A stretch of DNA of 35,057 nt from a virus, in IMG/VR virus record IMGVR_UViG_3300045738_001277, positions 1 to 35,057 of that record. One strand, 5' to 3'. The notes under the pieces are model-generated. The model ran no database searches, was not told the DNA's origin, and saw nothing but the letters and a program-made list of their open reading frames with translations. The position numbers and the translations under genes were made by a program. This document shows positions 3,748 to 21,139 of this stretch, piece after piece (position 1 is the stretch's first letter; the number at the start of each line of letters is the position of its first letter).

Positions 3748-6700
3748 CTAAGGCGTGGAGTCTGCACTATTGTCAGGCGCAACTTCGCCGCCGCCGTCAC
3801 CAAGTATCGTTAATTTCATCGCGTTGATTGTAAAATTATCCGCAATCCGCTTGATTGCTTTAATTAGCGGCGCATCTTCACCAGCCGCTTCTTCATCAAC
3901 ATATGCGTCGTCTCTATCGAATTCATCTATTAAAGTTCTATCAACCTCTCCTGCCGTGCCCTCGTCACCTAAATCTTCAAACCGAGTGCCGCCGGCAGCT
4001 TTTAATTGATCCAGCTCCTTCTGTTCTGCTTCAGTGAGTGCGTCGCCCCCAGCGACTTTCGTCTCTAGTTCTCGCCGACGTTTCTCGCGTGTGGCTTCCC
4101 GCTCAATCTCTGCGAGATCTGCCCCGCTACCCAGCCTCGCAACTAGGTCCTCGTCACCTTTAAGATCCTCGACATCAATTCCAGCCAACTCCGCTAACGT
4201 CTCTAATACTTTTTCCCTTCGTTTTTCCGGGGCCTCTCGCGCCTGCTCTTGGCGTGCTTTAACACGCTCTTCTTCTTCTTTCGTCATCTTTCCACCGGTT
4301 CCCTTGCCGATTTCTCCTGTAGCCCCGGCTTCTTGATAGCGCCTGTCAATCTCTGCAGCTCTAGTATTCATGCTGGTTAACAACGCATCAACTTTACCAG
4401 GCTCCGCTTTTCTTGCTTCCGCTAAACTTCCGTGCTCTTTGATTAATCGTTCGAGCTCGCCTTTGTCTGCTTCCAAGCCTTCAACTAAATCAACACCACC
4501 TTTGCCCAACTGCTTCATTGAATTGAGATTACCAAGGAACTTATTAGTAAGTGATCCAGCTTCTTTAAATGCAGCCTTTTGCGCCCGATCAACTTTCTTT
4601 GCGTAGTCAGGAGAGGTTGCGTCTCCCCCTATTGCGTCTTGCAGTTTCTGCATCCGCGTCGCAGTTGCCGCGGTTTCTTTTGCGTCCACTGTCGTTGCTA
4701 GGTACGCATCGCCCTGCTTGTCCAGGATCTTATTAGCAGCGTCTGCTGCTTTCCCAATACTGGCTACGGCCTTAGCACGCTCACCTTTACCGAAGTCAGT
4801 TAGTTTCCCAGAAGAGTCTCGCCACTTACCGCTTCTATCTTCATCAATCAGCTCCATTTTTTCTCGGTTTTTTCTAATTGCCTCCATTGCACCTACCATA
4901 GCGTCTTGAACATCGCCTGCGGGAATCCCCCCTAGTATCCTCCCCACTGCGTCTTTAATGCTTGTATCACCCCCCTGCACAATGTCCATAAGCTCGCGCA
5001 ACGGCCCCCGACTTGTTAACGGGGCAAGTGCGCCACGGATCGCCGCGTCCTGTCGCGCCGTTGCCGTAACACGTTGTCGTTGCTTTAGAGTCTGCCCGCC
5101 CATTGTTTGCAGGGCCACGTCGAAGTTATCGTACCCCTGGTCCTGGGCTGCGCGGTTACCCTCGGCTTCGATGCCGGCTGCCAGGCTCGGCAGCATGTTA
5201 TCGATTTGCGCATCCGAAAGACCCATCGCCTTTAACCTTGGTCGTGCCTTTTGATCAACAAACTTCTGCCAAGACTCGGTGTCCCTTCGATCGTCAGCGG
5301 TAGCCTCTTCCCAGATCTCCTGAGCTAACGGACCGGTAACAGCGGCTGAAACCTTCGCACGTTGTTCCGCATTAAGACTAGTCCCACCCCTTAACGCGCG
5401 ATTGAGGGCGATTCCTGTGGCCCGGCCAGCAACTCGACCACCCATCTCCTGCATCTGCATCGTTTCAATCGCGTCGACAATCTCCGGGTTCTCTGCTATG
5501 TACTTTTGATTACCGGCTGGGTCGGTAATAAAGTCCTGGTACATGTCAGCTTCGAGGTCAGACAGCCCGCTGGATTTAAAGATCTCCCGCATCTTGTTGG
5601 GGTTGGTCATGAGGTCGAGCATCGACTGGCCTTCAAACTCGGCGTCGCCGCGTTTAATAGCCTTCATCAATTTTTCAGCACGACTTCCTGCCTTAAAGCT
5701 GCCGCCAGCAATTTGATCTTCCATCCGGAATATCGCAGCTGTACTCATACCGGCCTGGCTTGCCATGCCCTGCTCAGTAGACTTTGTGATCATTGCTGCC
5801 GCTTCATCTGAACTCACGGTGCCAAACACACCAGCCCAGCCCATGTCAGCAACTGCTCGTCCGCCAATTGCGCCGCGCTGCCCAGCGACAACCGCTAAGC
5901 TTCTGTGGAGTCCGAGCTGGTCTCCAATCGATGCCGCGGCAGACGTCAATGCCATGATGGAATCGATGCCCATTCCGGTGTTATCTGAGATCGCCTTAGT
6001 CATACGGACCATACGCTCTAGTTCTGCGGCGGGCATGCTAGCAATCCCGCCCTGCGTCAGCTGATTAAGCCCCTCGATGATCTGTGACATAGGTGCATTT
6101 GGGTTACCTAGATCACCAAAGATCTCACGCATGGCGTCTACAGCGCCTGCAAGGCCCTCCATGCGGCTCTTAACGCGTTTAGCGTCAAACTGCCTTAGTT
6201 TGGTCCTGAAAGCCTCCTCGCCACCAGGGCCGGCGTCCTTGGATGCTTTAACGTCAGCTACCGAAATTCCTTCATCTTCAGCGAGAGCCTCATATTGATC
6301 TTCACGACTCATCGTACCTATACTGCGCACACCAAGCATTCCACGCTTAGTCATCTCTTCATACATCAGCCCGGCCTGCCCCATACTGATGCCGTGCTGA
6401 CTGAACTCACTGTCAGGGTCATCAAGAGCATCTTTAAACGCGTCCACCATTTCTTTTACTGAAGACTGTGCGCCATCAGCATCAGCCGATCCACCTAAAC
6501 CGCGCATCCCAGTCACAGGATCAACGGCGTAGCGGCCGCCTTCCATTAACCCCCTAGCAAGCACAGCAGCGCTACCTTTACGACCGTGCAATTTATCAAG
6601 AAGATCAGGCATCATTTGCGCCATGATCGGCGTAAATTGTGCCATGTGCCCCGCCATGGACGCAGCAGTAGCCTGCTGATCCAGGCCCATATCCATGCCC

Positions 6701-7059
6701 ATCATTTGACCCGAGCCAATGAGGAACCTCGTCATGGCCGGGCGATCTGCCTGGGCGCCAGCGCCAACCGCCTCCTGCATCTCTTTTTGACGTTGCTCAA
6801 TCCTGTATTGATCGTAGAGGTTTTGCGTCCCCATAAACTGGCCGGGAACTAAACCCTGATTACCCATGAACCCATGAATCATGGGCTGGGTTATCATATT
6901 GAGCATACCGAGGCCGGGAATGTTTCCCGCAGGGTTTCCGCCGCCCATTTGATAACCAGAGAATAGGCTATTACCGCCGCCTTGCGCGACGCTATTCATG
7001 AACACACTACCGCCCATCGCCGGTTGTGGTCCGAACATGCCTCCGCCTGGAAATCCCAT
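3748..7059 (-). CDS. Tape measure protein
   Basis: At 1103 residues this is the longest gene in the window. It lies directly after two overlapping chaperone-like genes, the standard place for a tape measure. The N-terminus (about residues 1-75) is rich in Gly, Met, Pro and Gln; the rest is almost all helical. Highly charged coiled-coil segments occur near residues 710-1000 (for example KMTKEEEERVKARQEQAREA). The C-terminus is acidic and ends near a hydrophobic helix. No peptidoglycan hydrolase motif is visible. With the usual relation of about 0.15 nm of tail per residue, the tail would be around 165 nm long; this is inference. ATG at 7059 has AAGGA about ten bases upstream. Many long plus-strand frames overlap it and are shadows of its codon bias. 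Confidence 0.85.
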   Translation of the reverse strand: MGFPGGGMFGPQPAMGGSVFMNSVAQGGGNSLFSGYQMGGGNPAGNIPGLGMLNMITQPMIHGFMGNQGLVPGQFMGTQNLYDQYRIEQRQKEMQEAVGAGAQADRPAMTRFLIGSGQMMGMDMGLDQQATAASMAGHMAQFTPIMAQMMPDLLDKLHGRKGSAAVLARGLMEGGRYAVDPVTGMRGLGGSADADGAQSSVKEMVDAFKDALDDPDSEFSQHGISMGQAGLMYEEMTKRGMLGVRSIGTMSREDQYEALAEDEGISVADVKASKDAGPGGEEAFRTKLRQFDAKRVKSRMEGLAGAVDAMREIFGDLGNPNAPMSQIIEGLNQLTQGGIASMPAAELERMVRMTKAISDNTGMGIDSIMALTSAAASIGDQLGLHRSLAVVAGQRGAIGGRAVADMGWAGVFGTVSSDEAAAMITKSTEQGMASQAGMSTAAIFRMEDQIAGGSFKAGSRAEKLMKAIKRGDAEFEGQSMLDLMTNPNKMREIFKSSGLSDLEADMYQDFITDPAGNQKYIAENPEIVDAIETMQMQEMGGRVAGRATGIALNRALRGGTSLNAEQRAKVSAAVTGPLAQEIWEEATADDRRDTESWQKFVDQKARPRLKAMGLSDAQIDNMLPSLAAGIEAEGNRAAQDQGYDNFDVALQTMGGQTLKQRQRVTATARQDAAIRGALAPLTSRGPLRELMDIVQGGDTSIKDAVGRILGGIPAGDVQDAMVGAMEAIRKNREKMELIDEDRSGKWRDSSGKLTDFGKGERAKAVASIGKAADAANKILDKQGDAYLATTVDAKETAATATRMQKLQDAIGGDATSPDYAKKVDRAQKAAFKEAGSLTNKFLGNLNSMKQLGKGGVDLVEGLEADKGELERLIKEHGSLAEARKAEPGKVDALLTSMNTRAAEIDRRYQEAGATGEIGKGTGGKMTKEEEERVKARQEQAREAPEKRREKVLETLAELAGIDVEDLKGDEDLVARLGSGADLAEIEREATREKRRRELETKVAGGDALTEAEQKELDQLKAAGGTRFEDLGDEGTAGEVDRTLIDEFDRDDAYVDEEAAGEDAPLIKAIKRIADNFTINAMKLTILGDGGGEVAPDNSADSTP

Positions 7060-7077: not shown

Positions 7078-7521
7078 TTAATTACTAGGCTCGTCTGACT
7101 CCGTCAACCAACGAGACATTGCGTCAATTTGCGCCTTAATCATTGGGTCGTCGGGATCGCCAAATGCATTTGCCCAGGACTCTTTTAGTCCTGCATATTT
7201 ACTCTTTTCTTTGTTAGCCGCAGTTTCTTCTTTCCCCTTTAACCAGGGTAAATCTAGATCACGACTTTTGTCATAAATAGTGTTTGCGGCTTCCCACACA
7301 TTATGTAACGATTCTTGCCCAAGATTTGCATTGCTTAACTGTGAAACTACTTGTCTATGTAACATGTCGTAGAGACGTAGTTCATTTTGCTTCTGCATCT
7401 CTGTTATCAATAACCGAATCTTAAACCTGTCACGATCCTTTCGGGTATCTATGCGGCTAAAATCAATTAACCCGCGCGCCGCTGCTTGTAGTATCAGGGC
7501 ACCGACTCGATTCCCTTCCAA
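7078..7521 (-). CDS. Tail assembly chaperone, downstream frame (gpT-like)
   Basis: A 147-codon frame lying in the -1 frame relative to the preceding gene and overlapping its end by 28 bp. Its only upstream start is a TTG at 7521 inside that overlap, with no good ribosome site; the first ATG is at residue 38. This is the arrangement of lambda G/GT and equivalent gene pairs in many myoviruses, where the second frame is translated mainly as an extension of the first after a -1 frameshift. The product is charged and helical (DTRKDRDRFKIRLLITEMQ; then GLKESWANAFGDPDDP). It ends 18 bp before the tape measure start, which these chaperones bind. If expressed alone it would need the TTG or an internal ATG. 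Confidence 0.65.
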   Translation of the reverse strand: MEGNRVGALILQAAARGLIDFSRIDTRKDRDRFKIRLLITEMQKQNELRLYDMLHRQVVSQLSNANLGQESLHNVWEAANTIYDKSRDLDLPWLKGKEETAANKEKSKYAGLKESWANAFGDPDDPMIKAQIDAMSRWLTESDEPSN

Positions 7522-8549
7522 AAATCCGAGTCATCTACTCTCGCCTCCAACTTTTCTACCAGTCTTTGAAAGCGCTGATGCTCCATACCAACGACGCGCC
7601 GCATAGACTCACTAGAAAGTACGTTGTCGTGTAACCACGTCTCCAATACAGGCAAAGCTGTTTGCGCATCCTCACCTATAGCCGGGGCATCCCACTCGAT
7701 ATCCGCAATGACAGGAACCAGATTCATTGCTGATGGCGTTGAAATCTTTTCAATCGACATAGCTAGTCGGTAGTTAGTGAAGACACGGTAAAACTCCCCC
7801 TGGTCCGGAACTTTACCATCACGAAAATCGTAGGCTGTTTGTTGTAGTGCAATATCAGCTTCCTCTGTGAGGAGCGTACGATATTGAACCGTAACCCTGT
7901 CTCCAAAGAGATGCACATCCTTGTAAAAACGTGTGCCCCCTAAAATAGACATCAAAAAATCTTGCTTATCCCTGTTAGTAACATCCGGGGTTTCTTTAAT
8001 GTTCGTGTCCCATCCACAGTGGGAACATAGATTACTCGGTTTTTGTTTAATGCCGATAGGATCGTCATCCGCATCCACCGGTGACGCTTCGATCGCCTGT
8101 GACGGGTCATCTACGACATCTAAGCCCCCCTCCTGAGACGCAACCTCGATAGCCTCGGCAACGCCCGGAGCAACCATCTCTGGTGTTACAGGTTGTACTG
8201 GTTGCGCGGCTTGCGCTTCCCGCAGCTCTTCAAATGCTTGCGTAAGCTCCTCCTGTTTTTCTGGCGGCAGGTCATCAAAATTTACTGTCTCTGGAGCTGT
8301 TGGCGTTGCGCCGCTTGTCTCTAAATCAGAAACAGCTTGCGCCTGCTCTTCTGCAACCGCTGCCATAAAAGCTTTCAAGTCTGGAACAGGATCACCTTCT
8401 TTCCACCCCGCGCTCTTCAAAAATTCAATCTCCTCGGGCATAAGCTTCATCTTTTTCCCGGGAGGAAACGGTAATTGATTCACCGGCACAGCAGCTGCTT
8501 CTTGTGCAGATGGCGCCGCCTTCTTTCTAAGGTCAAGTTTTTTAGCCAT
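7494..8549 (-). CDS. Tail assembly chaperone, upstream frame (gpG-like)
   Basis: 351 residues. Residues 1-160 are low-complexity and rich in Ala, Pro, Glu and Gln. A folded region begins at the CSHCGWD motif near residue 174, a single CxxC pair, and runs through RTLLTEEADIALQQTAYDF to the C-terminus (DFWKGIESVP). Its place before the tape measure and its overlap with a second gene in the -1 frame mark it as the first half of a tail assembly chaperone pair. It is longer than lambda gpG, as is common in large myoviruses. ATG at 8549 follows GGAGA about 11 bases upstream. A shift at the T run 7520-7524 would give a fusion of about 490 residues. Confidence 0.65.
   Translation of the reverse strand: MAKKLDLRKKAAPSAQEAAAVPVNQLPFPPGKKMKLMPEEIEFLKSAGWKEGDPVPDLKAFMAAVAEEQAQAVSDLETSGATPTAPETVNFDDLPPEKQEELTQAFEELREAQAAQPVQPVTPEMVAPGVAEAIEVASQEGGLDVVDDPSQAIEASPVDADDDPIGIKQKPSNLCSHCGWDTNIKETPDVTNRDKQDFLMSILGGTRFYKDVHLFGDRVTVQYRTLLTEEADIALQQTAYDFRDGKVPDQGEFYRVFTNYRLAMSIEKISTPSAMNLVPVIADIEWDAPAIGEDAQTALPVLETWLHDNVLSSESMRRVVGMEHQRFQRLVEKLEARVDDSDFWKGIESVP
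7518..7524 (-). promoter_or_regulatory. Candidate -1 ribosomal frameshift site
   Basis: On the minus strand the heptamer T_TTT_TGG sits in the zero frame of the upstream chaperone gene. A -1 slip lets the Phe codon TTT re-pair perfectly and continues in the frame of the 147-codon gene. The A-site codon TGG would not re-pair well, so this is not the canonical X_XXY_YYZ form; single-tRNA slippage at the P site is the plausible mechanism. No downstream pseudoknot could be judged by eye. Confidence 0.4.
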
Positions 8550-8585: not shown

Positions 8586-11500
8586 TTAAAGACCGGGATC
8601 AAAATCACCAGGCGGCGACGGGGGCATTTGAACAAAGGGGTTCTCAAGACCCCCCGTAGGAGCTTCGCCTCCTTTTTCACTCGGAATAATCACACGATAA
8701 GTACCATCTAATTTCTTAACATGATCCAACTTCGTAATAGGTAAGAAAGCCCACGGTTCTTTCTCATCATCTAGGGTTCCCCTGTACGGGTCACCTGCCC
8801 GAATCTCGCCCTTGCAGTCGGTAAAGCGGCTAACGGGTGCAGTAAATAAACTGCCCTCATCTCCGCCCCCTGTGGTGGCGCCGACAAACCCCAAATCCAT
8901 TTGAATTAAAGTATCATCATCTTTCCACGGCTTCTTACCTGGATAAGGATAAGTGACGCGGCCTTCTTCGGGATCTTCCGTGGCAGTAATAGGAACAGGT
9001 GCCTCCACCCACGTCCCTACTGTCCCCTCACTTGCTGACACAGCGATCCGCGACAACTGCTGCCACCGGTCTTCAAAAAGAACGAACTCTTCTGTCAGAT
9101 ACTGCTTGGAATCTCTCAGACTCACGCCAATATCTTTAATCGTCTTATTATCACCCGGCCGTTTATCTGTATACCACCACAATTCAAACTGCGCCTCGTA
9201 TTGATCTGCACCAATATCAGCCAAAAGATCCTGCCGTTCTTCAGTAGCCTCTTGTATGAAGGTCAGTGTTTTTTCCAATGGCTCCCCGTCGAGACACCAT
9301 ACGAACTGACCCATCGGCTGGCAGGCTGTCGTTGAGGCGTAATGTCCGTCAACAACAAGATCCCAGCCCTTGTTTGCTTTATGTCCATTTATAGCGAGGT
9401 GCCCATTAATCCCACAAGAACCACCAACACTGCACCAAGTAGGTAAAAACTCGTACGAGGAGATGATCTTACCAACAGTCTCTCCGACGCCCTCGGCAAA
9501 CCACCACCAGATACCGTGCCGAATAAAGTGTTCTTGGTATGACGCATTTGTTTTATAGATGCCGCGGCCCTGGTTGCAATCTAAAGTAATATCCCCAAGT
9601 TGTGTCTCGTCTAGACCTGCGCGCACATAAACACTCGGGCCCAGTATAACCGCGGGAGCCTCTGACGATTTAATAACGACTCCGCCAGAAATAACATCCT
9701 CACCAAGATTTGGTGCGAACTCGTAATTCTCCATACCGCGTGATTCAATAAGAATCCCGCCTACCTTACTTGTGCTATTACCTGCAAGCAGCTGCATGTT
9801 CTTTTCAGACTTAATACGCACATCTTTATCACTTGCCGTTATGTCGATGGAGTTCTTTGCTTTAATAATCGTATCTTGCCCGGACCACACATTGGTATTG
9901 CGCCCGGATTTCATCCAGATATCACCGGGGGCCGAGAGAAAAATTTGACCCCCCGTCATACGAATTTCAGCACCAAACCCATCAGAAATAACTACACCAC
10001 CATCTTCTAAAAGGTCGATGGAAGAGGAGTTTGGGTAGTAACCCCCTACAGGCTTACCTGTAGTTGATTCCGCTTCATCATAACGGTGATCAATCTTCGG
10101 GCCGACCGTGTCCCAATCTGTTATTGCTTCCGGTGGTTCTATGTATTGCTTGTTCGCAAGGGCCTGGAAGTTGTAAGCACACTGAAAAGTCCCCGAGATA
10201 GGCGTCTCCAGCTCTTGGTGCAAAGTCCAATCATTTGCGTGATAAAAATACGCGTGATTTGATTCCATGTTAAAAGTAAACGCATGTGAATCCAGCACGC
10301 CCGCAGCTCGAATTAGGAATACCGGGGCACCAAACGGTGACCGCTCAAATTGAACCGGCCCCTCCCAGGTACCGGACTCTGCCAACTCATCCCGGATAGC
10401 GTGTACATTAGGCGTCAACTCAATTTTCGGCGCGCAGACTATCGACTTTGCACCGCATGCGACTTTACAACAGTCGACACTACTATCCGTACAATCCACT
10501 GGATTAGAGAAGCTAGCTACTCCAGCAAATCTGTACTCAGATTCCGAGTCCGCTCCGCTGTGAACCGTTTTAATAGTCTCCGGACGCGTTGCTCGCTTAG
10601 GGTTTACAATCGGAATGCGCTTTGCGATTGAAATAGCTTTAGCGCTGCGCAGGTTGTAGCGGCCCGACAGTAAAATATCTTCAGAAAAGACACCAGCTTC
10701 TGGCCCCGACGAATATTGACGAAGGGTGCCAGCACCAGATGGTCCTGCAGCGAAATGAACCGGGCCGGTTGCAGTGGAAGCGGATTCACCAGGCGGCGTA
10801 CCGGCCGCGCCATCAACATAACCCGGGAGTTGAATCCGGCGCTGCCCGCCCTGCCCAAGGTATCCTTGCGTATGCAAGACTCTATGAAATGCTAGTTGAT
10901 CATCGACCGCAGGCTCTCGTTCAGCATACCACGGCTGCGTTACTTGAGATTGCTCAGCAGTAAACTCACGACTTGGATCCCCTCTTTCATATAATCCCAG
11001 GTTCTCCCAGGGATATGGAGTAAAGCCTTCGTGATAAGTAAACTCACCCTGATCATTCAAGGCTTCCAGTTCTGAACCCGCCGTACGAATTTGCAGATTA
11101 TGCCCTGCTAGTCGGAGCATGTTATCGAACAGGAATGCAAAAACTCCGCAAGCTTCATTGACAGCCATTTGCGCCATAAATGGATCAAGAAAGAATCGCA
11201 AGCCCGTCTCTGTAATCTGCCCCCATTCACCTGCGGCCGTACCATCCATAGGACGATCGGTATTAAAATCGATTACGCCGGATCCGCCGGCCATGGTAGA
11301 CGGAAATTTGTGTGCGTCGTCTACCACGCGGCTTACTAAGGTGACAAAATCCGGTATCTTTTTACGTGCGTCTACCGAGACATCAGGTTCACACCCAATG
11401 ATTGATGCGTATTCCATCTGCGGATGATCAAGTAACCATACTCGCGCACCAGGGGGGACAGAAGAAAGAGACCGCGCGCCCGAGAAACCACAGGTTTCCA

Positions 11501-11780
11501 TTAAAGAACAGCAGCTCTTAATAGGGCCGCCATGATCGGGCTGGACTTTATAGAAATGAGATCCCGCGAGACTATCTACTACAATCCCTGTGGTAATCTT
11601 AGTAGTATTACCGAGATCTTGTGTAAACAGCGCGGCGCGGCCAAGCAAACCAGAATCAACTTCAGATTCAGCTTTGGCCGGGGGCGTTTTTTGCCCGTCT
11701 CTTATCTGGCGTTCACGAGAAACCTTATGCAGGGAGTCCTGCATGTTCTTAATAAGGTAGATCGCTTGTGCAGGATTCAT
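8586..11780 (-). CDS. Baseplate/tail spike protein with OB fold and beta-helix (gp5/VgrG-like)
   Basis: 1064 residues. Residues about 50-130 look like the OB fold of gp5/VgrG spikes (FYKVQPDHGGPIKSC, then PPGARVWLLDHP and ASIIGCEPD). Residues about 595-680 carry short alternating beta repeats of the spike beta-helix type (GAEIRMTGGQIFLSAPGDIW, NSIDITASDKDVRIKSEKN). A Cys-rich loop (DCTDSSVDCCKVACGAK) lies near residue 430, and the C-terminal 350 residues form an unrecognised domain ending in a Pro-rich tail. The protein would form the membrane-piercing tip under the tube. It sits between the tube and chaperone genes. ATG at 11780 has AAGGTGG eight bases upstream, partly inside a small palindrome. 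No lysozyme domain is visible. Confidence 0.65.
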   Translation of the reverse strand: MNPAQAIYLIKNMQDSLHKVSRERQIRDGQKTPPAKAESEVDSGLLGRAALFTQDLGNTTKITTGIVVDSLAGSHFYKVQPDHGGPIKSCCSLMETCGFSGARSLSSVPPGARVWLLDHPQMEYASIIGCEPDVSVDARKKIPDFVTLVSRVVDDAHKFPSTMAGGSGVIDFNTDRPMDGTAAGEWGQITETGLRFFLDPFMAQMAVNEACGVFAFLFDNMLRLAGHNLQIRTAGSELEALNDQGEFTYHEGFTPYPWENLGLYERGDPSREFTAEQSQVTQPWYAEREPAVDDQLAFHRVLHTQGYLGQGGQRRIQLPGYVDGAAGTPPGESASTATGPVHFAAGPSGAGTLRQYSSGPEAGVFSEDILLSGRYNLRSAKAISIAKRIPIVNPKRATRPETIKTVHSGADSESEYRFAGVASFSNPVDCTDSSVDCCKVACGAKSIVCAPKIELTPNVHAIRDELAESGTWEGPVQFERSPFGAPVFLIRAAGVLDSHAFTFNMESNHAYFYHANDWTLHQELETPISGTFQCAYNFQALANKQYIEPPEAITDWDTVGPKIDHRYDEAESTTGKPVGGYYPNSSSIDLLEDGGVVISDGFGAEIRMTGGQIFLSAPGDIWMKSGRNTNVWSGQDTIIKAKNSIDITASDKDVRIKSEKNMQLLAGNSTSKVGGILIESRGMENYEFAPNLGEDVISGGVVIKSSEAPAVILGPSVYVRAGLDETQLGDITLDCNQGRGIYKTNASYQEHFIRHGIWWWFAEGVGETVGKIISSYEFLPTWCSVGGSCGINGHLAINGHKANKGWDLVVDGHYASTTACQPMGQFVWCLDGEPLEKTLTFIQEATEERQDLLADIGADQYEAQFELWWYTDKRPGDNKTIKDIGVSLRDSKQYLTEEFVLFEDRWQQLSRIAVSASEGTVGTWVEAPVPITATEDPEEGRVTYPYPGKKPWKDDDTLIQMDLGFVGATTGGGDEGSLFTAPVSRFTDCKGEIRAGDPYRGTLDDEKEPWAFLPITKLDHVKKLDGTYRVIIPSEKGGEAPTGGLENPFVQMPPSPPGDFDPGL

Positions 11781-11789
11781 ATATTTTCC

Positions 11790-11804
11790 ACCTTACGGTA
11801 AGGT
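11790..11804 (-). promoter_or_regulatory. Palindrome overlapping the spike gene ribosome site
   Basis: A 7-bp inverted repeat (ACCTTAC-G-GTAAGGT) includes most of the AAGGTGG Shine-Dalgarno of the spike gene. When folded it would hide the ribosome site, a simple way to keep spike output low compared with the tube made just upstream. The loop is tiny, so the fold may be weaker than the base count suggests. Confidence 0.35.
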
Positions 11805-11822
11805 TATGGGCATAAAGCCCCA

Positions 11823-11852
11823 GTATCGGGGGCGTACGTACACCCCCGATAC
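11823..11852 (-). terminator. Intercistronic hairpin after tail tube gene
   Basis: A perfect 10-bp stem (GTATCGGGGG paired with CCCCCGATAC) with a 10-base loop lies 38 bp after the tube stop. It is GC-rich like a terminator, but no T run follows on the minus strand; a second small hairpin (GGGC-TTTAT-GCCC) comes next. It may be a partial terminator or a 3' stabiliser for the tube mRNA. Confidence 0.5.
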
Positions 11853-11889
11853 CAGAATACCGTTAAACGAGTTATCCACTAAAGAATTT

Positions 11890-12375
11890 TTACGAAGCGT
11901 AGGACAGGGCCACGAACATCAACTGCACTTGCTCGTTGATAATCATGTCCTGAGCCTGCACAGTAAATCCCATCGACGTGATAACTGCGTTATGGATAGT
12001 AAAACCAGCTTTTGCATAGTCTGCCTGTGCTCCGCTAGCACAACCGGCTTCCAACGAGAAGTTAATAGTATTGTCTGCAGCCTTACAGACATCACCAAAC
12101 TTCTGATAAAAACCGAGCTGCAATGCTCGCGGACCAAAGACACGCCCAAGCGTGGCTTGTCCCTGTGTTCTCCCACCTACATAGTAAGTGTTCTGAGAAC
12201 CAATTTCATATAATCGCGTAATTTGCTGCGTGTAATTAACAGACAAGTTTTGCGTCAGAAGACCAACGCCCCCGGCCTGCAAATCACCACCACCAGCAAA
12301 CACAACTTTTGCGGAGTCAGCTGCGAACGAACCCTTGAAATCATGGCCGCCGCGTGAAAATACGTCAGTAGGCAT
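11890..12375 (-). CDS. Tail tube protein
   Basis: 161 residues, directly after the sheath, as in other contractile-tail phages. The pattern fits a tube-fold protein: early loop VFSRGGHDFKGSF, the strand LLTQNLSVNYTQQITRLYEIG, then QGQATLGRVFGP and a closing strand GFTVQAQDMIINEQVQLMFV. The hexameric rings of this protein form the inner conduit for DNA. The ATG at 12375 carries the strong CACGGAGG leader shared with capsid and sheath genes, as expected for an abundant protein. It is flanked by hairpins on both sides, so its message level could be set separately from its neighbours. Confidence 0.85.
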   Translation of the reverse strand: MPTDVFSRGGHDFKGSFAADSAKVVFAGGGDLQAGGVGLLTQNLSVNYTQQITRLYEIGSQNTYYVGGRTQGQATLGRVFGPRALQLGFYQKFGDVCKAADNTINFSLEAGCASGAQADYAKAGFTIHNAVITSMGFTVQAQDMIINEQVQLMFVALSYAS

Positions 12376-12447
12376 AGTAAAAACCTCCGTGTTTTAAAGT
12401 GCAAATCGCCAATCTTGCACCAGGTTATCGGCATTAAAACCAGCAAA

Positions 12448-12471
12448 GATGGCCACCCGAAGGTGACCATC
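12448..12471 (-). terminator. Hairpin with C(UUCG)G loop between sheath and tube
   Basis: On the minus strand a 10-bp stem (GATGGTCACC with GGTGGCCATC, one T-G pair) closes on a TTCG tetraloop flanked by C and G, the very stable UUCG form. It lies 15 bp after the sheath stop and is followed by TTTGCTGGTTTTA rather than a clean T run. It may act as a weak terminator, an attenuator or an mRNA stabiliser. Confidence 0.55.
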
Positions 12472-12485
12472 CCGGCACCAAATTG

Positions 12486-15215
12486 TCAGACTACCAAATG
12501 AATCTCAATGTTGTTCATTGGGTATGGAATTTCCAAGTTAAGCACAATCACGACACGATCTTTCAACAAGGCATGTTGCCTTAGTTGGGTGATCTCGCCA
12601 TCAATAAGCTGTCCACCAAGAGTATCCGTATACCCGTTAGCTTTCAGGAAATCGATGGAGGCAGTCACCTCTACAGAGAGAATGTCCAACGCAGACGGTG
12701 TCACGTTAGAACGCCCAATGTATGGCGACAGCCGGTTCAAGAACAAGTAAGACATCGAGTCCACGTTACGAACGACCTGCTCTTCTCTACGATTCAGGTC
12801 AACCGAATCCGTAGTCAATGCGTGACGTGTAATGATGTTGCCCTCATCGTCCTGAGTAACAATCCAAACGCCGCTATTCGCCATGACGTTCAGTTGATCC
12901 CCATTAAAGAGGTCCCGCGAACGGGATGCATCATCAAAGCCAGACACCTGGATATTTGTCAGGCCCTGGTGCGGCACAACACCGCTCGAAAGACCAGCCA
13001 AAGCAGCTGCCAAGTAAAACCCATCCGCCAGCTCTCCGCCCTGGTTGATGTTATCAGGCCATACTGCGCGAACTCGGCGGTTGCCCCATGCGCCCGCATT
13101 CAACGCGATCGCTGCGGCCAACTCATCCTTGTCACGAGTATGGTGAATCTCAATCCTCTCAGCATCCGTAATCGTGCTGTCGTGAGCTGTCGTAAGGATT
13201 AAAGAATCGTCACCGAGAACACTGTCAACGACAAACTCAGTATAAGTCTCGTTACCGTGTCCGTCTTCGTCGAAGAGATACCGAACGATATCTCCCGGCT
13301 CCGTACGGTTCGCGGCGCTGTCGAGGTCGACATTAGCCGTGGTAACCACAAGCTTAGAGTACTGAGTTCCGACAGTAGCCGGGTCATCAATTAACGTCGC
13401 CTTTACCACCTCGCTATCAGATGAGGTAGCTTCTCCAGCAACTTCAATGACGTCATCCGCATCAGCAACAGTCCACATAACACGCCAGCGACCAGCTGTT
13501 GGGCTGGATTGACTGTTTACGTGGCCTTCAAACAAGTCCAAGACGGTCTTGTCATGCGTAAGCGGAACCAAACCATAAACGTCATCACGACCAACACCCA
13601 GCTTCAAAGCTTCTACCCACTCGTCATCGTCACTAGGATCTGAAACTGCAGTGTACTTGACCCAAGTTCCATTAGAGTTGGACAGCGCTTTATAGATACC
13701 CCACTTCATTGGATTGTCCGGGTCTAATGGCCCGTCCAATAAATCAATGTCCGCGGTATCTTGCAAAGCTGCGATTGCGCCGACTTTAACCGACAACCAT
13801 TCGCGATACTCCACAAAAACATCACCCTGCGTAACAACCAGCTCTTCCAGATCACCACCGCTGGTTACCCAGTCAGCATCATAAGCGTCGATTGCGCTAT
13901 TGATAGTGATCTGAGAAGCGGTTGTGGACCAGTTATCCACACTGGAGGCACTAAGGCGATTAAATGGAACCTCAATGTCCTTCTTAATGGAGAGCCAGAG
14001 GTCCACATTAGTGGAGGCCGCAAGCGTGGCATTCATTGAATGCGCCATCTCCAGGATATTAAAGTCACCATCTGCCGCAGCAGTAGCTGCAAAGCGGAAC
14101 TTATCGCCCTTATACAGGCCGCTCCCGTTGTCAAATTCGATAGTAAGACCAAAGCTTCCAATTGAAACAGGTGTCGCCGTTAACAACACCGCGGTCGGAC
14201 CCGAGGCATCAACACCGTTGGTGGTTGTCACCTGGATCTTAGCGTTAACGCCATACACAGCACCTTCAACTACCTCAACAATGTAGGTAGTATCTTTCGT
14301 GCCGGTATACGTCCCAGCAGCCGTGCCGTTATTAGCACTGGTCGCCTGGTCAATCGTCCAAGTAAAAACATCTCCAACTTCTAGGTCATCGTTTGCGCCG
14401 GAGACGTTGTCGACCTGAACAGTGAGCCCGCGAACACCAAATTCTTTGGCCACGCCATCAAGGGCGGGAACAAAGTTAAGGTTATCGTCATCGCCGGAAC
14501 CAGAAACGATATCCACAATAGCCGTGGAAAAATCCTCGCCCGTTGACCCTTGGGTAACGGTAAGGGTGTACGTATCTGTTTGCACACCGGTCTCAAAGAT
14601 CTTATAGCTGCTCTCATCTACCGCTAAGGTTGACGAGGTGACGTTACTACCGCCTGCAGCGCCCGCCGTTGTTGCCGACCCTCCAAACGTGCCGACATTA
14701 GCAGCATCTTCTGTGGCGTTTGTCACAATAGATGCGCCAACCTGGGTTGCGAGAATATTCTTAACGTAGGTGTTAAGAGTTTCTCCCGCACCTTTTACTT
14801 TGACACGGTCCCCGGCCTTCACGTCGCGCAAAAGCGCAGCCGTTCTGGCGTAGGAAACACCGTTATCTTTAAAGTTGGTTGCGCTAGATGAAATGCGATT
14901 AGCATAACTAGCGACCGGCGCAACTGTCGCGGCACCCTCAAGCTCTGCATGGAACTGCAGATAAGCGTCGTCAATAAAGACTTTGACGTAGCTAATATCT
15001 ATGACAGATCCCGTAGCTTTATCCGGCCAATTGTAAGCCGTATTCGAGTCTTTGTCGTAAGCGCCGACATCAATATCTAGTTTCTCGTCAGCGTCCGCAT
15101 ATCGATGGAGATCTGCATGTCCCCCAATAATAAACGCACGCAGTGGATTTGTCAGTTCAGCTGGTATCAGATTAAATTCCTGAAAAACCAGTACTTGTGG
15201 TATTACGTAAGCCAT
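12486..15215 (-). CDS. Tail sheath protein
   Basis: 909 residues, long for a sheath. The N-terminus (LVFQEFNLIPAELTNPLRAF) and the C-terminal third are typical: VPHQGLTNIQVSGFDD, then GDQLNVMANSGVWIVTQ, then QVVRNVDSMSYLF near residue 815 and a final domain ending LNLEIPYPMNNIEIHLVV. These are the conserved parts that wrap the tube and interlock subunits. The large middle region contains two tandem beta-sandwich-like repeats (roughly 14345-14585 and 14085-14305) that likely project outward. The ATG at 15215 has the CACGGAGG leader. The presence of this gene shows the phage has a contractile tail. Confidence 0.92.
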   Translation of the reverse strand: MAYVIPQVLVFQEFNLIPAELTNPLRAFIIGGHADLHRYADADEKLDIDVGAYDKDSNTAYNWPDKATGSVIDISYVKVFIDDAYLQFHAELEGAATVAPVASYANRISSSATNFKDNGVSYARTAALLRDVKAGDRVKVKGAGETLNTYVKNILATQVGASIVTNATEDAANVGTFGGSATTAGAAGGSNVTSSTLAVDESSYKIFETGVQTDTYTLTVTQGSTGEDFSTAIVDIVSGSGDDDNLNFVPALDGVAKEFGVRGLTVQVDNVSGANDDLEVGDVFTWTIDQATSANNGTAAGTYTGTKDTTYIVEVVEGAVYGVNAKIQVTTTNGVDASGPTAVLLTATPVSIGSFGLTIEFDNGSGLYKGDKFRFAATAAADGDFNILEMAHSMNATLAASTNVDLWLSIKKDIEVPFNRLSASSVDNWSTTASQITINSAIDAYDADWVTSGGDLEELVVTQGDVFVEYREWLSVKVGAIAALQDTADIDLLDGPLDPDNPMKWGIYKALSNSNGTWVKYTAVSDPSDDDEWVEALKLGVGRDDVYGLVPLTHDKTVLDLFEGHVNSQSSPTAGRWRVMWTVADADDVIEVAGEATSSDSEVVKATLIDDPATVGTQYSKLVVTTANVDLDSAANRTEPGDIVRYLFDEDGHGNETYTEFVVDSVLGDDSLILTTAHDSTITDAERIEIHHTRDKDELAAAIALNAGAWGNRRVRAVWPDNINQGGELADGFYLAAALAGLSSGVVPHQGLTNIQVSGFDDASRSRDLFNGDQLNVMANSGVWIVTQDDEGNIITRHALTTDSVDLNRREEQVVRNVDSMSYLFLNRLSPYIGRSNVTPSALDILSVEVTASIDFLKANGYTDTLGGQLIDGEITQLRQHALLKDRVVIVLNLEIPYPMNNIEIHLVV

Positions 15216-15248
15216 TTTTATGCCTCCGTGCTAAAGCTTAATATGTGA

Positions 15249-15875
15249 TCATGGTTCGAATGTTTGTAACACTACACGTTTGAGCTTAGGAGCATGTGGT
15301 TTAATCGTCCATGTCTCCTCATGGGCGTAACTAATTGTTACCGGAACAGCGTAATGTGTCACTGATTCCTCTAACCCACTAAGTGGCCCAATCTCGGCTA
15401 CGGCGAACCGATGTAAGTCGAGCTCCCGGCGGATGTATGAGGAAAAAGACACTAGGTGCCTGTAGACCTCAGCCGCCAACTTCTCACATTCTGCTCCTGC
15501 CCGCGCTAGACAGAATATCGTGTGAGAACCAGACATAAACGTGGCATAGTGATCATACCCATCAGGAGAAGGGATCCCCATGATTTGATCGTTAATTCCA
15601 CGTCGTTCTACTCGCCATCCGTTACGCTTAATAATTAGCGCTGGACGGGAACCCGCTTGGTCTGGGTTCCACCGAGTAATGCTTTCAATCAGGATGCTAC
15701 TATCAGCACCTGACGTCCAAAGGTAATCTTCAAGACTACGATCCTCAATCTGATCTTTTTCGGCAAAGTGTTCCATGAACAATTGCCTTAAAAATCCCGT
15801 CATAAGAAGTGGGCGCATTCCCAACGAACAAAGAGAGCTTGCGCGCTCAACTCTAACTTCCGGAGATGTCGGCAT
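15249..15875 (-). CDS. Candidate tail terminator / gp15-like protein
   Basis: 208 residues from the ATG at 15875, which has GGAGG five bases upstream. An in-frame start at 15956 would overlap the previous gene by 104 bp without a better ribosome site. The pattern ALIIKRNGWRVERRG, then YATFMSGSHTIFCLARAGAEC, then a helix (EKLAAEVYRHLVSF) and final strands (YAVPVTISYAHEETWTI) fits the alpha/beta terminator fold that caps tail tubes and joins them to the neck. It lies immediately before the sheath, where terminator genes usually sit. It overlaps the preceding small gene by 23 bp. Function is inferred from pattern and order. Confidence 0.5.
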   Translation of the reverse strand: MPTSPEVRVERASSLCSLGMRPLLMTGFLRQLFMEHFAEKDQIEDRSLEDYLWTSGADSSILIESITRWNPDQAGSRPALIIKRNGWRVERRGINDQIMGIPSPDGYDHYATFMSGSHTIFCLARAGAECEKLAAEVYRHLVSFSSYIRRELDLHRFAVAEIGPLSGLEESVTHYAVPVTISYAHEETWTIKPHAPKLKRVVLQTFEP

Positions 15876-16113
15876 CCGTGCCTCCACGAGGAATCTCAGT
15901 AATCTCAACGTTACCTGGTTGCTTAGTAAACCTGACAACATCGTCGTCAGGTTCATCGTGCAAGGAAACTGTGCTCCTCATACGTATTTTAGGTAACAGG
16001 CTCGGCAAGGTGTCTTCTTGCCCTGGTTTTTTCTGTTTCGGAACCACGGGTTTATTTCGCCGGGGCTCTTGGTGCGGTAATTCCGCCTCTAAATCATCAG
16101 GTATCCATGGCAT
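15853..16113 (-). CDS. Small unrecognised neck-region protein
   Basis: 86 residues from the ATG at 16113, which has AGGTG five bases upstream. Earlier in-frame starts exist at 16131 (ATG) and 16164 (GTG), but both have weak ribosome sites. The protein is rich in Pro, Lys, Asp and Glu (PRRNKPVVPKQKKPGQED) and probably largely disordered. Its end overlaps the next gene by 23 bp, so the two are likely translationally coupled. No function can be read from the sequence; position suggests neck or tail completion. Confidence 0.5.
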   Translation of the reverse strand: MPWIPDDLEAELPHQEPRRNKPVVPKQKKPGQEDTLPSLLPKIRMRSTVSLHDEPDDDVVRFTKQPGNVEITEIPRGGTDADISGS

Positions 16114-16173
16114 CTTTACACCTAGCCTCATCTCTAAGGATACTACGTCATACCGGTTGTTCACAACCTATTT

Positions 16174-16986
16174 TTATGTAATTGTTACTTCGTAAATGGG
16201 ATCGTTAAATGCGGCCGGGCGTAATTCCACGTTTACAATGATAGGAACACCCCGGATCTCCGCTGCATGCTGCACAGAATGTATAAAATAACGCCTATCA
16301 GATGTGGCATCCACCCACACATCCTTCGTGTTTAGTTGCGGAAATGCAACTGTACGCCCAGATATTCGAATATCGTTAATGGTACCACGGTTTTGTAAGT
16401 CTGTCTTAATATGATTCGTTTCAGGAGCAAGATCCATAAACATAGCTAGCGGACTGTAATAACCACCAACTTTAGATGTGCCTTTACCATCTGTATTAAT
16501 TGTTTTGACAACTTCACCAGTCAACGGATCCACAACTTGGTGATCGTCAATTGTTGTACCCTCTTGCCATTTACGCTTTAGAAAAAACCCATTCGGCGCC
16601 GCCTTCTTCTCGAGTCGCAAAAGTTCTTTCCGAATAATCGACTTAGCAAGTAACCAATCTCGCTGCGATAGCAACCCATATGTTGCTGCAGGCTGAGACA
16701 AATACGTGCCGCCAGACGTGGTCAGCTTAACCCGATAATGCGTCGTCAACCGCTTACCATACACTCGCTTTGTATTATCAACAGCAAAAAAAGTGTCTAC
16801 AATTGCCGCGCCTTCGTCAGCCCAATCATCCGCCGTACTAACACCTGTGACCCCTACTTGTAACTGAAAGGTATGCGGGGTCGCGTCAGTAAAGGTTTTC
16901 TGAAGCTCCCAGGATATCCGGGAACCGCCGCCTACGAGATGGTCGACGCTAACACGCTTAAAAACTGCGTCTCTAGTAGTTGGCAT
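16174..16986 (-). CDS. Unrecognised neck/head-tail joining protein
   Basis: 270 residues. The first 110 residues read as a fibronectin/Ig-like beta domain (ISWELQKTFTDATPHTFQLQV, then THYRVKLTTSGGTYLSQPA), followed by a basic helix (AKSIIRKELLRLEKKAAPNG) and a second beta region with VWVDATSDRRYFIHSVQHAA and VPIIVNVELRPAA. It lies between the connector-like gene (3 bp gap) and the tail terminator candidate, so a neck role is likely. The start ATG at 16986 follows GGAGG about ten bases upstream. The family is not recognised. Confidence 0.55.
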   Translation of the reverse strand: MPTTRDAVFKRVSVDHLVGGGSRISWELQKTFTDATPHTFQLQVGVTGVSTADDWADEGAAIVDTFFAVDNTKRVYGKRLTTHYRVKLTTSGGTYLSQPAATYGLLSQRDWLLAKSIIRKELLRLEKKAAPNGFFLKRKWQEGTTIDDHQVVDPLTGEVVKTINTDGKGTSKVGGYYSPLAMFMDLAPETNHIKTDLQNRGTINDIRISGRTVAFPQLNTKDVWVDATSDRRYFIHSVQHAAEIRGVPIIVNVELRPAAFNDPIYEVTIT

Positions 16987-16989
16987 ATA

Positions 16990-17850
16990 CTACCGTCCTC
17001 CATAGTTATAGGTAGAGCCCAGCGCGCTATACCCTGCACTCAGATTCAACGACACCTTCTTTGTGCGTGCAAACTGTTCCCACTCTTGCTTCATTTGCGC
17101 AGCCTTTTGCTCATAATCGTTGGCTTTGTTTTTATCGTCAATCTGCATGCCGCCGGCGCTGTATTGAAGACGATTACGCCTGTAGTGCTCAGCAGCTATG
17201 GAGAATAAGTTTGCGCAAATTGCAATTAACCAGTGATACCGCCAAGGGAAGTTCTGCGATGAGTATGTTCGGTTTAATGGCGGTAGGATTTCATTCCAAA
17301 AGCGAACAGGCAGGGTAATAGCTGCTGCTATCTCACTCATGTCAAAATCCACTGTATCCAGTAATTCGTTCTCCTGTGAGAAGTCTCGGAGGAACAAACG
17401 TATCTCAGCCATCGAAGGAGGGCCTACGGAGTCGTTTAACGAGCCAAACAGCCCTTCGTCGACTACGATCCATAATGTATTAGAGAACAGCATGCGGTCA
17501 CTGGCGTCCAGGACGGCAAACTCGCCTATGTAAATACCAGGTATATTCTTAACGACGGCCGGTATTTCACATCGAATCTCACCGTCTGCTGCTGTTGTAA
17601 CCGTACAGTCTGCCTCAGGCACGCTTGCCGCGCTGGTGATTGTCACCGCATCTTTGAACTTAGCTTTAACAGTAGTCGATGAGTAATCAGCGTGGCTAAG
17701 ATCAACCGGATTTCCGTCATTATCGTGCAGCGTAACATCTGCAAAAGCATACTGTCCGGACTTCGTAGCGATAACACGCCGTTTAAGGGGGACAGCGCCG
17801 CCGCCGAAGTGGTCAACACCTCCCTGGTCTGCAATATCGTTAAGGGCCAT
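16990..17850 (-). CDS. Candidate head-tail connector with N-terminal Ig-like domain
   Basis: 286 residues in two parts. Residues 15-130 form a beta domain with the pattern ADVTLHDNDGNPVDLSHA, then IPGIYIGEFAVLDASDRMLF, similar to the N-terminal domain of baseplate BppU-type proteins. Residues 145-260 are helical (AEIRLFLRDFSQENELLDTV, then WLIAICANLFSIAAEHYRRN), the pattern of gp6-like head-tail connector adaptors that stack beneath the portal. The gene follows the glycosyltransferase by 19 bp and starts the neck block. ATG at 17850 has AAGGAGG upstream. The connector call is from helix pattern and order; the fusion of the two parts is unusual. Confidence 0.5.
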   Translation of the reverse strand: MALNDIADQGGVDHFGGGAVPLKRRVIATKSGQYAFADVTLHDNDGNPVDLSHADYSSTTVKAKFKDAVTITSAASVPEADCTVTTAADGEIRCEIPAVVKNIPGIYIGEFAVLDASDRMLFSNTLWIVVDEGLFGSLNDSVGPPSMAEIRLFLRDFSQENELLDTVDFDMSEIAAAITLPVRFWNEILPPLNRTYSSQNFPWRYHWLIAICANLFSIAAEHYRRNRLQYSAGGMQIDDKNKANDYEQKAAQMKQEWEQFARTKKVSLNLSAGYSALGSTYNYGGR

Positions 17851-17869
17851 CCGTGGTCCTCCTTAGGTA

Positions 17870-19231
17870 TTATCGAAGAAGCGGCGATCCCGCAATTCTT
17901 CGTTTGTCCTTAATAGCTATTAAATCTGTATTTGAATACAACATGTTTGAACTAGCATGCAATGCATCGGGGTGCTCATCCCAACGGCGAGCTGTGTGAA
18001 AACATGCAGTGTAGTCCTTTTCTCCAACAGGGGCCGCTGTGTCTGCGTTCTCAAAAAGCAAAAAAGAGTTGATGTTCCAAAAACTTTTGTACGTAGGGAC
18101 CTGAAAAGCCGCGCGTCCATCTGTGCTAGGCGCAGACAAGGATAACCAACCCCCCGGTGCTAGCTTTTTCCACACTGTATTAATCCAAGAAAACACGTCT
18201 TCTCCCGCTATATGCTGAAGCACATCCTTTGCGCGTACCCAACCTATTGAATTATCGACCAGGTCCTTAACATCTAAATAATGTGACACCCCCTCCGCTT
18301 CGCCATTAGCAACAACTAAAACCGGTAACCCGCGCCTTCGACAATCTTCACTAACGATAGCATGTGTTCTTTGATGCGCTATCTCTCCTTCAATTTTTTG
18401 TATCTCCTTATTCATCGCTACAACACTTCTACTACCGCTCCACTGACGATAGAGATACAGGCATTTATCAATGTGATGAAACTCGACTCCAGCTAAATAT
18501 GTTCTGCTTATTAAATCAAAGTCATCACATACGCAGTATTTGGGGTCGTGCCCGCCAACTTTATTGTACGCTTCTTTACTCCATACCCGAATGTGGTTCG
18601 GGGTTGTAAATATTCTGTGTAAGGAATCTGCGGTTGGCGGGAACGCCCGGCTTGCTAAAAATTGTTTCCCGTTAAGAATTACAGGGTAGCTCTCCCACCC
18701 ATTTTTTTCTGGGTAAGTAATAGACGACCCATCTTCTCTGAAGGTCGCAAAATTTGAATACAAGAACCCAGCGCCAGTCTTTTTGTATGCCTTAACAACT
18801 TCAAAAAGCGCATCATTTGATAGTATATCATCGTGGTCGAGCTCAACATATAACTGACCACTGCACTGATAAGCGGCAAACTTTTTCAAACTACCGATAC
18901 TGACATTAGCACCGTCATCAATAGGGAAATACGCTACTTTTACACGGGGATCTTTACGAATTACCGCTGGTATGTCCGTGACCTTTGTTAACGCCCCGTT
19001 GGGAACAAGCACCCACTCCCAATTAGAATACACCTGGACACGAAGAGACTCGTAGCATTCTGCCAGGTACTTGATGTTATCCGTAGGCGTAAAAACACTC
19101 ACAAGCAAATCTTTCTTCTTGCTTGTAGGCGTTCTTTTCTTTACCGCCTTGGTTGGTTTCTTTGTCGCCTTCCTGGCTGGTTTCTTTGTCGCCTTCCTGG
19201 CTACCTTCTTCTTCTTCGGGGTAGCTGCCAC
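17870..19231 (-). CDS. Family 2 glycosyltransferase with histone-like tail and methyltransferase-like C-terminus
   Basis: 453 residues from a GTG at 19231 with AGGAG eight bases upstream. Residues 6-40 are Lys/Ala/Pro-rich, with an 8-residue repeat (KKPARKAT) like histone H1 tails. Residues 41-250 are a GT-A glycosyltransferase: LLVSVFTPTDN, then YVELDHDDILS with the DxD-type metal site at D132-D135, and later GGHDPKYCVCDDFDL. Residues about 325-440 resemble the second half of a SAM methyltransferase (VRAKDVLQHI, LAPGGWLSLSAPS), but no motif I precedes them. Substrate is unknown; it could glycosylate virion proteins, DNA or a host glycan. The gene sits alone between a terminator and the neck genes, which suggests an inserted cargo gene. 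Confidence 0.8.
   Translation of the reverse strand: MAATPKKKKVARKATKKPARKATKKPTKAVKKRTPTSKKKDLLVSVFTPTDNIKYLAECYESLRVQVYSNWEWVLVPNGALTKVTDIPAVIRKDPRVKVAYFPIDDGANVSIGSLKKFAAYQCSGQLYVELDHDDILSNDALFEVVKAYKKTGAGFLYSNFATFREDGSSITYPEKNGWESYPVILNGKQFLASRAFPPTADSLHRIFTTPNHIRVWSKEAYNKVGGHDPKYCVCDDFDLISRTYLAGVEFHHIDKCLYLYRQWSGSRSVVAMNKEIQKIEGEIAHQRTHAIVSEDCRRRGLPVLVVANGEAEGVSHYLDVKDLVDNSIGWVRAKDVLQHIAGEDVFSWINTVWKKLAPGGWLSLSAPSTDGRAAFQVPTYKSFWNINSFLLFENADTAAPVGEKDYTACFHTARRWDEHPDALHASSNMLYSNTDLIAIKDKRRIAGSPLLR
19155..19202 (-). repeat. Two exact 24-bp tandem repeats in the basic tail
   Basis: Two identical 24-bp units (19155-19178 and 19179-19202) encode the repeated KKPARKAT octapeptide of the glycosyltransferase tail. 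Exact identity at all codon positions points to a recent slippage duplication. Confidence 0.85.
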
Positions 19232-19244
19232 TCGCTTTGCTCCT

Positions 19245-19284
19245 AAATAAAAACAGGCTGGTACACATGTAGTATACCAGCCTG
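19245..19284 (-). terminator. Rho-independent terminator between head and neck genes
   Basis: On the minus strand a perfect 10-bp stem (CAGGCTGGTA / TACCAGCCTG, 19254-19263 with 19275-19284) with an 11-base loop is followed directly by TTTTTATTT. It lies 34 bp after the 111-residue gene and ends about 14 bp before the GTG of the glycosyltransferase gene. It is the best terminator in the window. Confidence 0.85.
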
Positions 19285-19317
19285 CTTAGAAATTCAAGTA
19301 TTATCAAGCACCGCTAA

Positions 19318-19653
19318 TTAAGCATGCCCGGCGACAGTGTCATACTCACCCCAATCAGGATGCGCAACGCCAAACAAATCATTGTCGGGTACGACGTGCC
19401 GGACATTCTTAGTGGTATCATCCAGATGGACCGGCAACGGATCAGTAATGATCACGAGCTGGTCAGTATCGAGCGCATTGTTCAAAGCCTTCTCTTTACG
19501 AGCATTGCCCGCAACAAGTGACTTCAAATCACCGACGAACGAATAGTATTCGTCATCGGTCAATGAAACGCCATGTGGCCCTAAGAAACCAAAAAACAAT
19601 TCACCGCCTGAGGTGTTTCGAACCTTAGTACGAATTGATGCAAGATCTGCCAT
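19318..19653 (-). CDS. Small unrecognised head-region protein
   Basis: 111 residues, no family recognised. It has a short beta-rich start (SGGELFFGFLGPHGVSLTDD) followed by a helix and a strand (DQLVIITDPLPVHLDD) and an acidic C-terminus. ATG at 19653 has CGGAGGT upstream, a strong site close to the shared leader of the abundant virion genes, so it may be made in high amounts. It is the last gene before the strong terminator and lies 16 bp after the 133-residue gene. A head accessory or head-completion role is possible from position. Confidence 0.55.
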   Translation of the reverse strand: MADLASIRTKVRNTSGGELFFGFLGPHGVSLTDDEYYSFVGDLKSLVAGNARKEKALNNALDTDQLVIITDPLPVHLDDTTKNVRHVVPDNDLFGVAHPDWGEYDTVAGHA

Positions 19654-19669
19654 AGTATATTACCTCCGA

Positions 19670-20071
19670 TTACTGTTGCTGGATCTGGTCAACCAATATG
19701 TTGGCCGCGACAGCATCCTGATATGTTAACGACGCTTCCTTCAAAAGAGGATCGCTTGCCATTTCATAAATGGCGCTCTGCAGAGAAGAATTTGACTGTA
19801 CATTTTCTCCATAAACAGCACGATCCAGCTCGTGTCCGGCTGCGTCTAAAAATTCATTCCGTTGCCCCGCAGACTTGGTTTGTTCCTGCCCCTGCGCAAC
19901 TCTCAGCTTATCGCTCAAGTCCAACAGTTGCTGAGCTTCTTGCTCATTTTGCGGAACAACACCGTAGTCTTCGGCCAGCTTATTAAAGAAGACCGGCGCA
20001 TGAACATTCTCGAACAGGACATTATGGGCCTGCTCGGGTGTCAAATCCGGTACTTGCTGACTTTGCGACAT
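19670..20071 (-). CDS. Small helical head-region protein
   Basis: 133 residues, almost entirely helical and rich in Gln, Glu and Ala (LTPEQAHNVLFENVHAPVFF, then EQEAQQLLDLSDKLRVAQGQ). No family recognised. It follows the major capsid gene after a hairpin. ATG at 20071 has GGGAG upstream. Candidates are a head-completion or connector accessory protein, by position only. Confidence 0.55.
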   Translation of the reverse strand: MSQSQQVPDLTPEQAHNVLFENVHAPVFFNKLAEDYGVVPQNEQEAQQLLDLSDKLRVAQGQEQTKSAGQRNEFLDAAGHELDRAVYGENVQSNSSLQSAIYEMASDPLLKEASLTYQDAVAANILVDQIQQQ

Positions 20072-20110
20072 AGTGAGTATCTCCCAAATTTGTAACGCAT
20101 AACAGGATTA

Positions 20111-20136: not shown

Positions 20137-20149
20137 CGCTCTCTGTTTC

Positions 20150-21101: not shown

Positions 21102-21139
21102 TCAATTTCATTTTAAAAGTAACATGCTCAACAGGGAGT

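Follow-up and report, generated by a model that had tools for sequence, protein, structure and literature searches.

A conserved U_UUU slip site followed by a three-way-junction RNA points to programmed −1 frameshifting between two putative tail chaperone genes in large uncultured phages

Two overlapping genes located directly upstream of a probable tape measure gene, here called A and B, are very probably joined by a programmed −1 ribosomal frameshift, as judged from sequence comparison. They were analysed in a 35-kb virus fragment (IMGVR_UViG_3300045738_001277; "the window" designates this whole stretch of 35,057 nucleotides), in which both genes and the signal are on the minus strand. Most ribosomes would translate gene A to its own stop, while a minority would pause at an RNA three-way junction lying 5–6 nt downstream of TTT. 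The tRNA-Phe on UUU, after any codon ending in U, would then move back by one base to pair with the overlapping UUU, after which frame B would be translated to yield a 490-aa A-B fusion. The slippage, which we infer together with its rate, is supported by four kinds of comparison: the frame relation, the slip site, the switch of coding frame and the RNA found in relatives. The features of the locus are as follows:

8549..7494, minus strand: gene A, 351 aa, ATG start; short product, putative tail assembly chaperone, with homologues in 41 records
7530..7078 (stop at 7078), minus strand: B frame, −1 relative to A; predicted C-terminal part of the A-B fusion
7521-7519, minus strand: TTG, first usable start of B, though more plausibly a Leu codon inside the fusion, read after the frameshift
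7518..7524, minus strand: slippery site T_TTT_TGG; A frame GAT TTT TGG, and ..TTT TTG GAA after the predicted −1 slip
7494..7496, minus strand: gene A stop TGA, eight codons past TTT TGG
7443..7515, minus strand: downstream RNA structure, a three-way junction made of two hairpins closed off by the outer stem GGG(A)AUC/GAU(A)CCC
3748..7059, minus strand: gene of 1103 aa that follows B directly; probable tape measure

At the site, the A frame reads GAT (7526-7524), TTT (7523-7521) and TGG (7520-7518), while the homology of B begins at the TTT codon 7524-7522 (FLE..R..A). The first-pass annotation of this DNA had proposed an overlap of 28 bp in the −1 frame, and this is the distance found from the TTG to the gene A stop, with both reading frames open over the extents listed above. 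The run of five T that it described on the minus strand is present at 7524-7520, and its estimate of about 490 residues for the fusion agrees with the predicted length (343 + 147 = 490 aa), the predicted junction peptide in the window being ...VDDSDF/LEGNR. It had also stated that the second gene lacks a good start; indeed, the TTG at 7521 has a Shine-Dalgarno match that is both weak and badly placed (−3.5 kcal, about 14 nt away), while a good one precedes most of the window's genes. The N-terminal half of gene A is of low complexity and a CxxCGW motif is conserved; the C-terminal half is conserved and ends at the slip site with ...DDSDFW. In most relatives, the gene A stop is a TAG located six codons past TTT, and in four others (L107, L108, L113 and L121) the stop follows TGG directly (TTT TGG TGA).

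The family to which this locus belongs was reached through the capsid protein. Scans of viral and genome collections with the A, B, tube, spike-like and tape-measure proteins gave at most one relative. One close relative (L002) was found via B; its A and B are 69% and 61–65% identical to those of the window, respectively, and both GGATTTTTGG and the −1 overlap are kept. The scan with the capsid protein led to 49 loci from 47 records, and profile searches identified adjacent A and B genes in 40 of these 47 records. The 40 records with both genes, together with L002 and the window, constitute the 42 loci considered below, and 34 representatives (less than 95% identity) were used. Several of the relatives' records are about 205 kb long, and the lineage is therefore one of large phages. 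No match to A, B or the long downstream protein was found among phage records, and the A-B DNA had no match in plasmids. Shared head and sheath-like genes occur in Vibrio phage D69 and Salmonella phage Arash. The region 34113-35057 of the window matches RNA polymerase Rpb1 domain 5 and is near proteins of the same two phages, as for a phage with a multi-subunit RNA polymerase.

The slip site is strictly conserved. The A frame reads NNT_TTT_TGG, the B frame is −1 and B homology starts from TTT in 42 out of 42 loci, in all of which TTTTTGG is invariant. The check suggested in the first-pass annotation, namely that homologues keep the T run and the frame relation, thus has a clear outcome, as 41 of the 41 homologous loci keep NNT_TTT_TGG and −1. 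The codon before TTT among the 34 representatives is AGT (22), GAT (5), AAT (5) or TCT (2). On the tree, this codon changes six times, with five amino-acid changes and no change of the third base; the codon preference in the genes analysed is for C, by about 2:1 over T for Asp and Asn, and for AGC over AGT. The slip-site TTT itself undergoes no change on the tree, and a conserved Phe located 16 codons upstream shows nine switches between TTT and TTC. Since the preceding codon varies while its final T is fixed, the conserved element is best described as T_TTT, on which a single tRNA-Phe would slip, and not as a tandem heptamer. Expressed as a Z_ZZN tetramer with re-pairing of the cognate tRNA, T_TTT is found in 42/42 loci, and the preceding codon is free except for its final T. 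This is exactly the element put forward from the window, T_TTT_TGG with the Phe tRNA re-pairing on TTT. Three identical P-site bases, as required by the canonical X_XXY_YYZ, are not conserved, the P-site codon being GAT, AGT, AAT or TCT. In the 11,093 codons of the window genes, G_GAT_TTT occurs in frame 5 times and there are 14 instances of a canonical X_XXY_YYZ (A/T, last base not G); the chance of finding either within a 12-codon overlap is about 2% according to these counts. Chance is removed as an explanation by the conservation of the slip site in 42/42 loci.

Upstream of the slip site, a conserved Shine-Dalgarno-like stimulator of the dnaX type was not found generally among the relatives. 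A GGAGG in this region was considered as a Shine-Dalgarno stimulator and rejected, as it is present in the window and L002 but is not general in the relatives. The motif is located at window positions 7548-7532 and is followed, nine bases on, by an out-of-frame ATG that opens about 23 codons of the third frame; the GGAGG is kept in L002, and this stretch shows the best synonymous conservation within gene A between the window and L002.

The switch of coding frame was followed using codon pairs differing by one base, which were scored as synonymous or not in each frame. In the 23 codons upstream of the site, 79% are synonymous in frame A and 5% in frame B, while in codons 3-9 of B it is frame B that reaches 81%, with 19% for frame A. 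Codons 3-9 all precede any in-frame ATG, and several of them lie past the gene A stop in many relatives; in most, the TAG falls ahead of the last of these codons. A B protein begun at the codon-10 ATG would leave this stretch untranslated in the B frame. Because these codons, located before the ATG at codon 10, vary synonymously in frame B, B appears to be translated from the slip site onward.

Immediately downstream, the relatives share a three-way-junction RNA that shows conservation and covariation, whereas the window has a degenerate form; the RNA probably acts as the frameshift stimulator. In most relatives, GGGATCG lies 6 nt after TTT and pairs, about 60 nt further on, with CGATCCC; between them are two hairpins. 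The structure starts 5 nt past the tetramer in the window and 6 nt past it in the relatives, both within the 5–8 nt range for stimulators. When the pairs are named one by one, 86.6% of the cells are paired, compared with 31–47% in slid controls. The number of doubly changed cells (46 vs 19.5 in shuffles) and the covariation score (0.180 vs 0.098 shuffled) were each reached by 0 of 500 shuffles; neither pair types nor pairs showing a double change were more numerous than in the shuffles. The outer stem hardly varies and is thus supported by conservation, while it is the two hairpins that supply the covariation. The region folds more stably than its synonymous recodings, with a mean z of −2.8 at the site and of −0.5 to −1.2 elsewhere in B. 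RNAalifold alone retained only the outer stem, which is due to the inner hairpins pairing in 89% and 74% of the cells; these hairpins were revealed by counting pairs and folding single sequences. A structure analysis with two sequences was suggestive (consensus z of about −1.5), and the structure was resolved only with 34 sequences. A covariance model matches the A/B junction in 42/42 gene-holding records, all other matches being marginal (E 0.05 or worse), which reflects specificity more than sensitivity because most of these records supplied sequences to the model. The model had no match in Vibrio phage D69 or Salmonella phage Arash, which are more distant, and no Rfam match was obtained at the gathering score for the window and three relatives. 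The RNA of the window is an odd member of this family: its outer stem is one register out, GGG-A-AUC (7515-7509) pairing with GAU-A-CCC (7449-7443), and hairpin 1 is rearranged. Its fold is weak against synonymous recodings (z of −0.6, and −0.8 to −1.0 in a second run), and the consensus fold applied to it gives −0.6 kcal, which is nearly worthless. The first-pass annotation included neither this RNA nor U_UUU as a documented bacterial tetramer.

The same fusion would also result if two tRNAs slipped in tandem on G_GAT_TTT, a heptamer, as they do in pea enation mosaic virus, and only the tRNA mechanics would differ from those of a one-tRNA slip. Such a mechanism is suggested by GGATTTTTGG, which in the window and L002 consists of the same ten bases as the site of that virus (PMC5009743), and re-pairing on GGA in the P site is partly possible. 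The P-site codon is however AGT in most relatives, and AAT or TCT in others, so P-site re-pairing is not what selection keeps. This variation rules out G_GAT_TTT as a conserved tandem heptamer, and we consider tandem slippage unlikely. Transcriptional slippage, in which the RNA polymerase would slip on the T run and produce mixed mRNAs, has a negligible probability: a T run is present, but it consists of only five T, whereas longer runs are usually required, and a conserved downstream RNA at ribosome spacing would not be needed.

The other alternatives concern the start of B. If B were a separate gene starting at TTG 7521, with no frameshift, the presence of this TTG in all homologues and the start of B homology beside it would be accounted for, although the TTG is in any case contained in TTT TGG. 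Such a start would however not need a T before TTT, and yet this third base is fixed while the codon changes. A proper Shine-Dalgarno sequence is lacking at this position in the window and in the relatives, where the mean is −1.8 kcal compared with −8.2 at the best-scoring A start, and the conserved RNA fold right behind the start would be expected to hinder initiation. Considering the TTG without Shine-Dalgarno in the relatives and the conserved T before TTT, entry by frameshift is far likelier than initiation, and a separate gene starting at TTG is very improbable. The second ORF thus has no start signals of its own, and the conserved slip site is apparently where it is joined to the first. 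Termination-reinitiation near the A stop would make use of the ATG at B codon 10, which is in frame and near the gene A stop in 32 of the 34 representatives, with a classic TAATG overlap in L002 (ATG at 5037-5039) and others. Codon 10 is however ATA in the window and CTC in G002, the synonymous variation of codons 3-9 indicates that they are translated as B ahead of this ATG, and the conserved T run would be left unexplained. That reinitiation replaces the frameshift is therefore extremely improbable, but it could act in addition to it, and a separately made B from the codon-10 ATG is possible in relatives.

An overlapping-ORF tail chaperone frameshift before the tape measure is also the layout of E/E+E' in phage P2. 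Low-level −1 frameshifting between two genes preceding the tape measure is widespread in long-tailed phages, where it yields G and G-T (PMC5009743), and 6–7% frameshifting has been measured for HK97-like chaperones (PMC3711429). As for lambda G/GT, the overlapping ORF pair studied here is located before the presumed tape measure, with the second ORF in −1 without its own start signals and the slip near the end of the first (PMC5009743). Unlike in lambda and P2, the A and B proteins are unrelated by sequence to any family searched, and a conserved three-way-junction RNA follows the slip site. The lambda site is the tandem heptamer G_GGA_AAG (PMC7618472), whereas the one considered here is the one-tRNA tetramer U_UUU.

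U_UUU is a working tetramer in E. coli that is used in insertion sequences, with a stimulator usually starting 5–8 nt downstream; in E. coli it is only a moderate slip motif, and it requires this stimulator (PMC4066793). The phage signal resembles that of the IS3 family (IS3, IS911), which also has Z_ZZN tetramers, with U_UUU among the predominant ones, and a structured stimulator 5–8 nt downstream (PMC4066793, PMC5009743); the IS911 stimulator is itself a three-way junction (PMC5009743). The genes and the RNA sequence are nevertheless different from those of IS3/IS911. Furthermore, the Shine-Dalgarno stimulator located upstream in IS911 has no conserved counterpart in this phage lineage, and U_UUU was tested in the IS work with the IS3 pseudoknot. 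Given the combination of U_UUU and a stimulator as in IS elements, and the position before a tape-measure-like long gene, the most likely reading is, by analogy, that an IS-like cassette drives the frameshift of a tail chaperone. The similarity to the pea enation mosaic virus site G_GAU_UUU_UGG extends to ten bases (GGAUUUUUGG, identical in the window and L002) and to a structure 5 nt downstream (PMC5009743, PMC4737148), and the UUU UGG UAG layout of this virus is resembled by the four relatives with a stop right after UGG. It is however a eukaryotic RNA virus, the P-site codon varies within the phage lineage, and no homology is implied.

The proteins themselves gave no naming match in Pfam, PHROG or PDB, for A, B and their neighbours as sequences and for A and B also as alignments, and the AlphaFold models (pLDDT 40 and 49) and the fold search were of too low a quality to be informative. 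Known tail chaperones share little sequence (PMC5009743). The long gene after B had no match to a known tail family; it is homologous among the relatives, where it occupies the same place and encodes 721–1636 aa. This variation in length combined with homology is as expected of a tape measure, and the 1103-aa gene of the window probably has this role, based on its position and on the length variation. The two overlapping ORFs, the second in the −1 frame, are directly upstream of it. Their position before a long gene of variable length suggests that A and A-B would serve this long protein as tail assembly chaperones, in the manner of the G / GT pair.

On the other side of gene A, the product of window 8586-11780 has a weak DUF2345 match, which suggests a VgrG-like spike protein, unusually placed between a putative tube gene and the chaperone genes. 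Identity to IMGVR_UViG_3300010883_000022 is 89–98% for most genes at 11890-21715 and falls to 58–69% at or below 11780. This drop, at window 8586-11890, points to mosaicism or recombination, with the boundary lying where the spike-like gene meets the putative tube gene. Inside the head and tail gene block, a glycosyltransferase family 2 domain is found at 17870-19231, and a methyltransferase-like protein is encoded at 169-753.

Frameshifting of tail chaperones is of a known kind, while open-access text gives a weak indication that the protein families, the lineage and the combination of U_UUU with a covarying three-way-junction signal have not been described. A more extensive proposal, which we put forward tentatively and regard as rather doubtful, is that undescribed TTTTTGG + three-way-junction cassettes set the product ratio for a novel class of tail chaperone found in uncultured phages of about 200 kb, with a stand-alone B made in addition by reinitiation at the codon-10 ATG. 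Three products (A, A-B and B) would then be made, and the phage of the window would have lost this ATG and much of the fold. The lineage offers 34 distinct natural versions of a one-tRNA slip site combined with a three-way-junction stimulator, which would be useful for testing how RNA structure affects the frameshift rate, and suggests that sites of this kind would escape frameshift finders that look only for heptamers. The frameshift would also provide functional candidates for protein families without a match in any library searched, and would give this large uncultured phage lineage a fused tail protein liable to be overlooked in automatic annotation.
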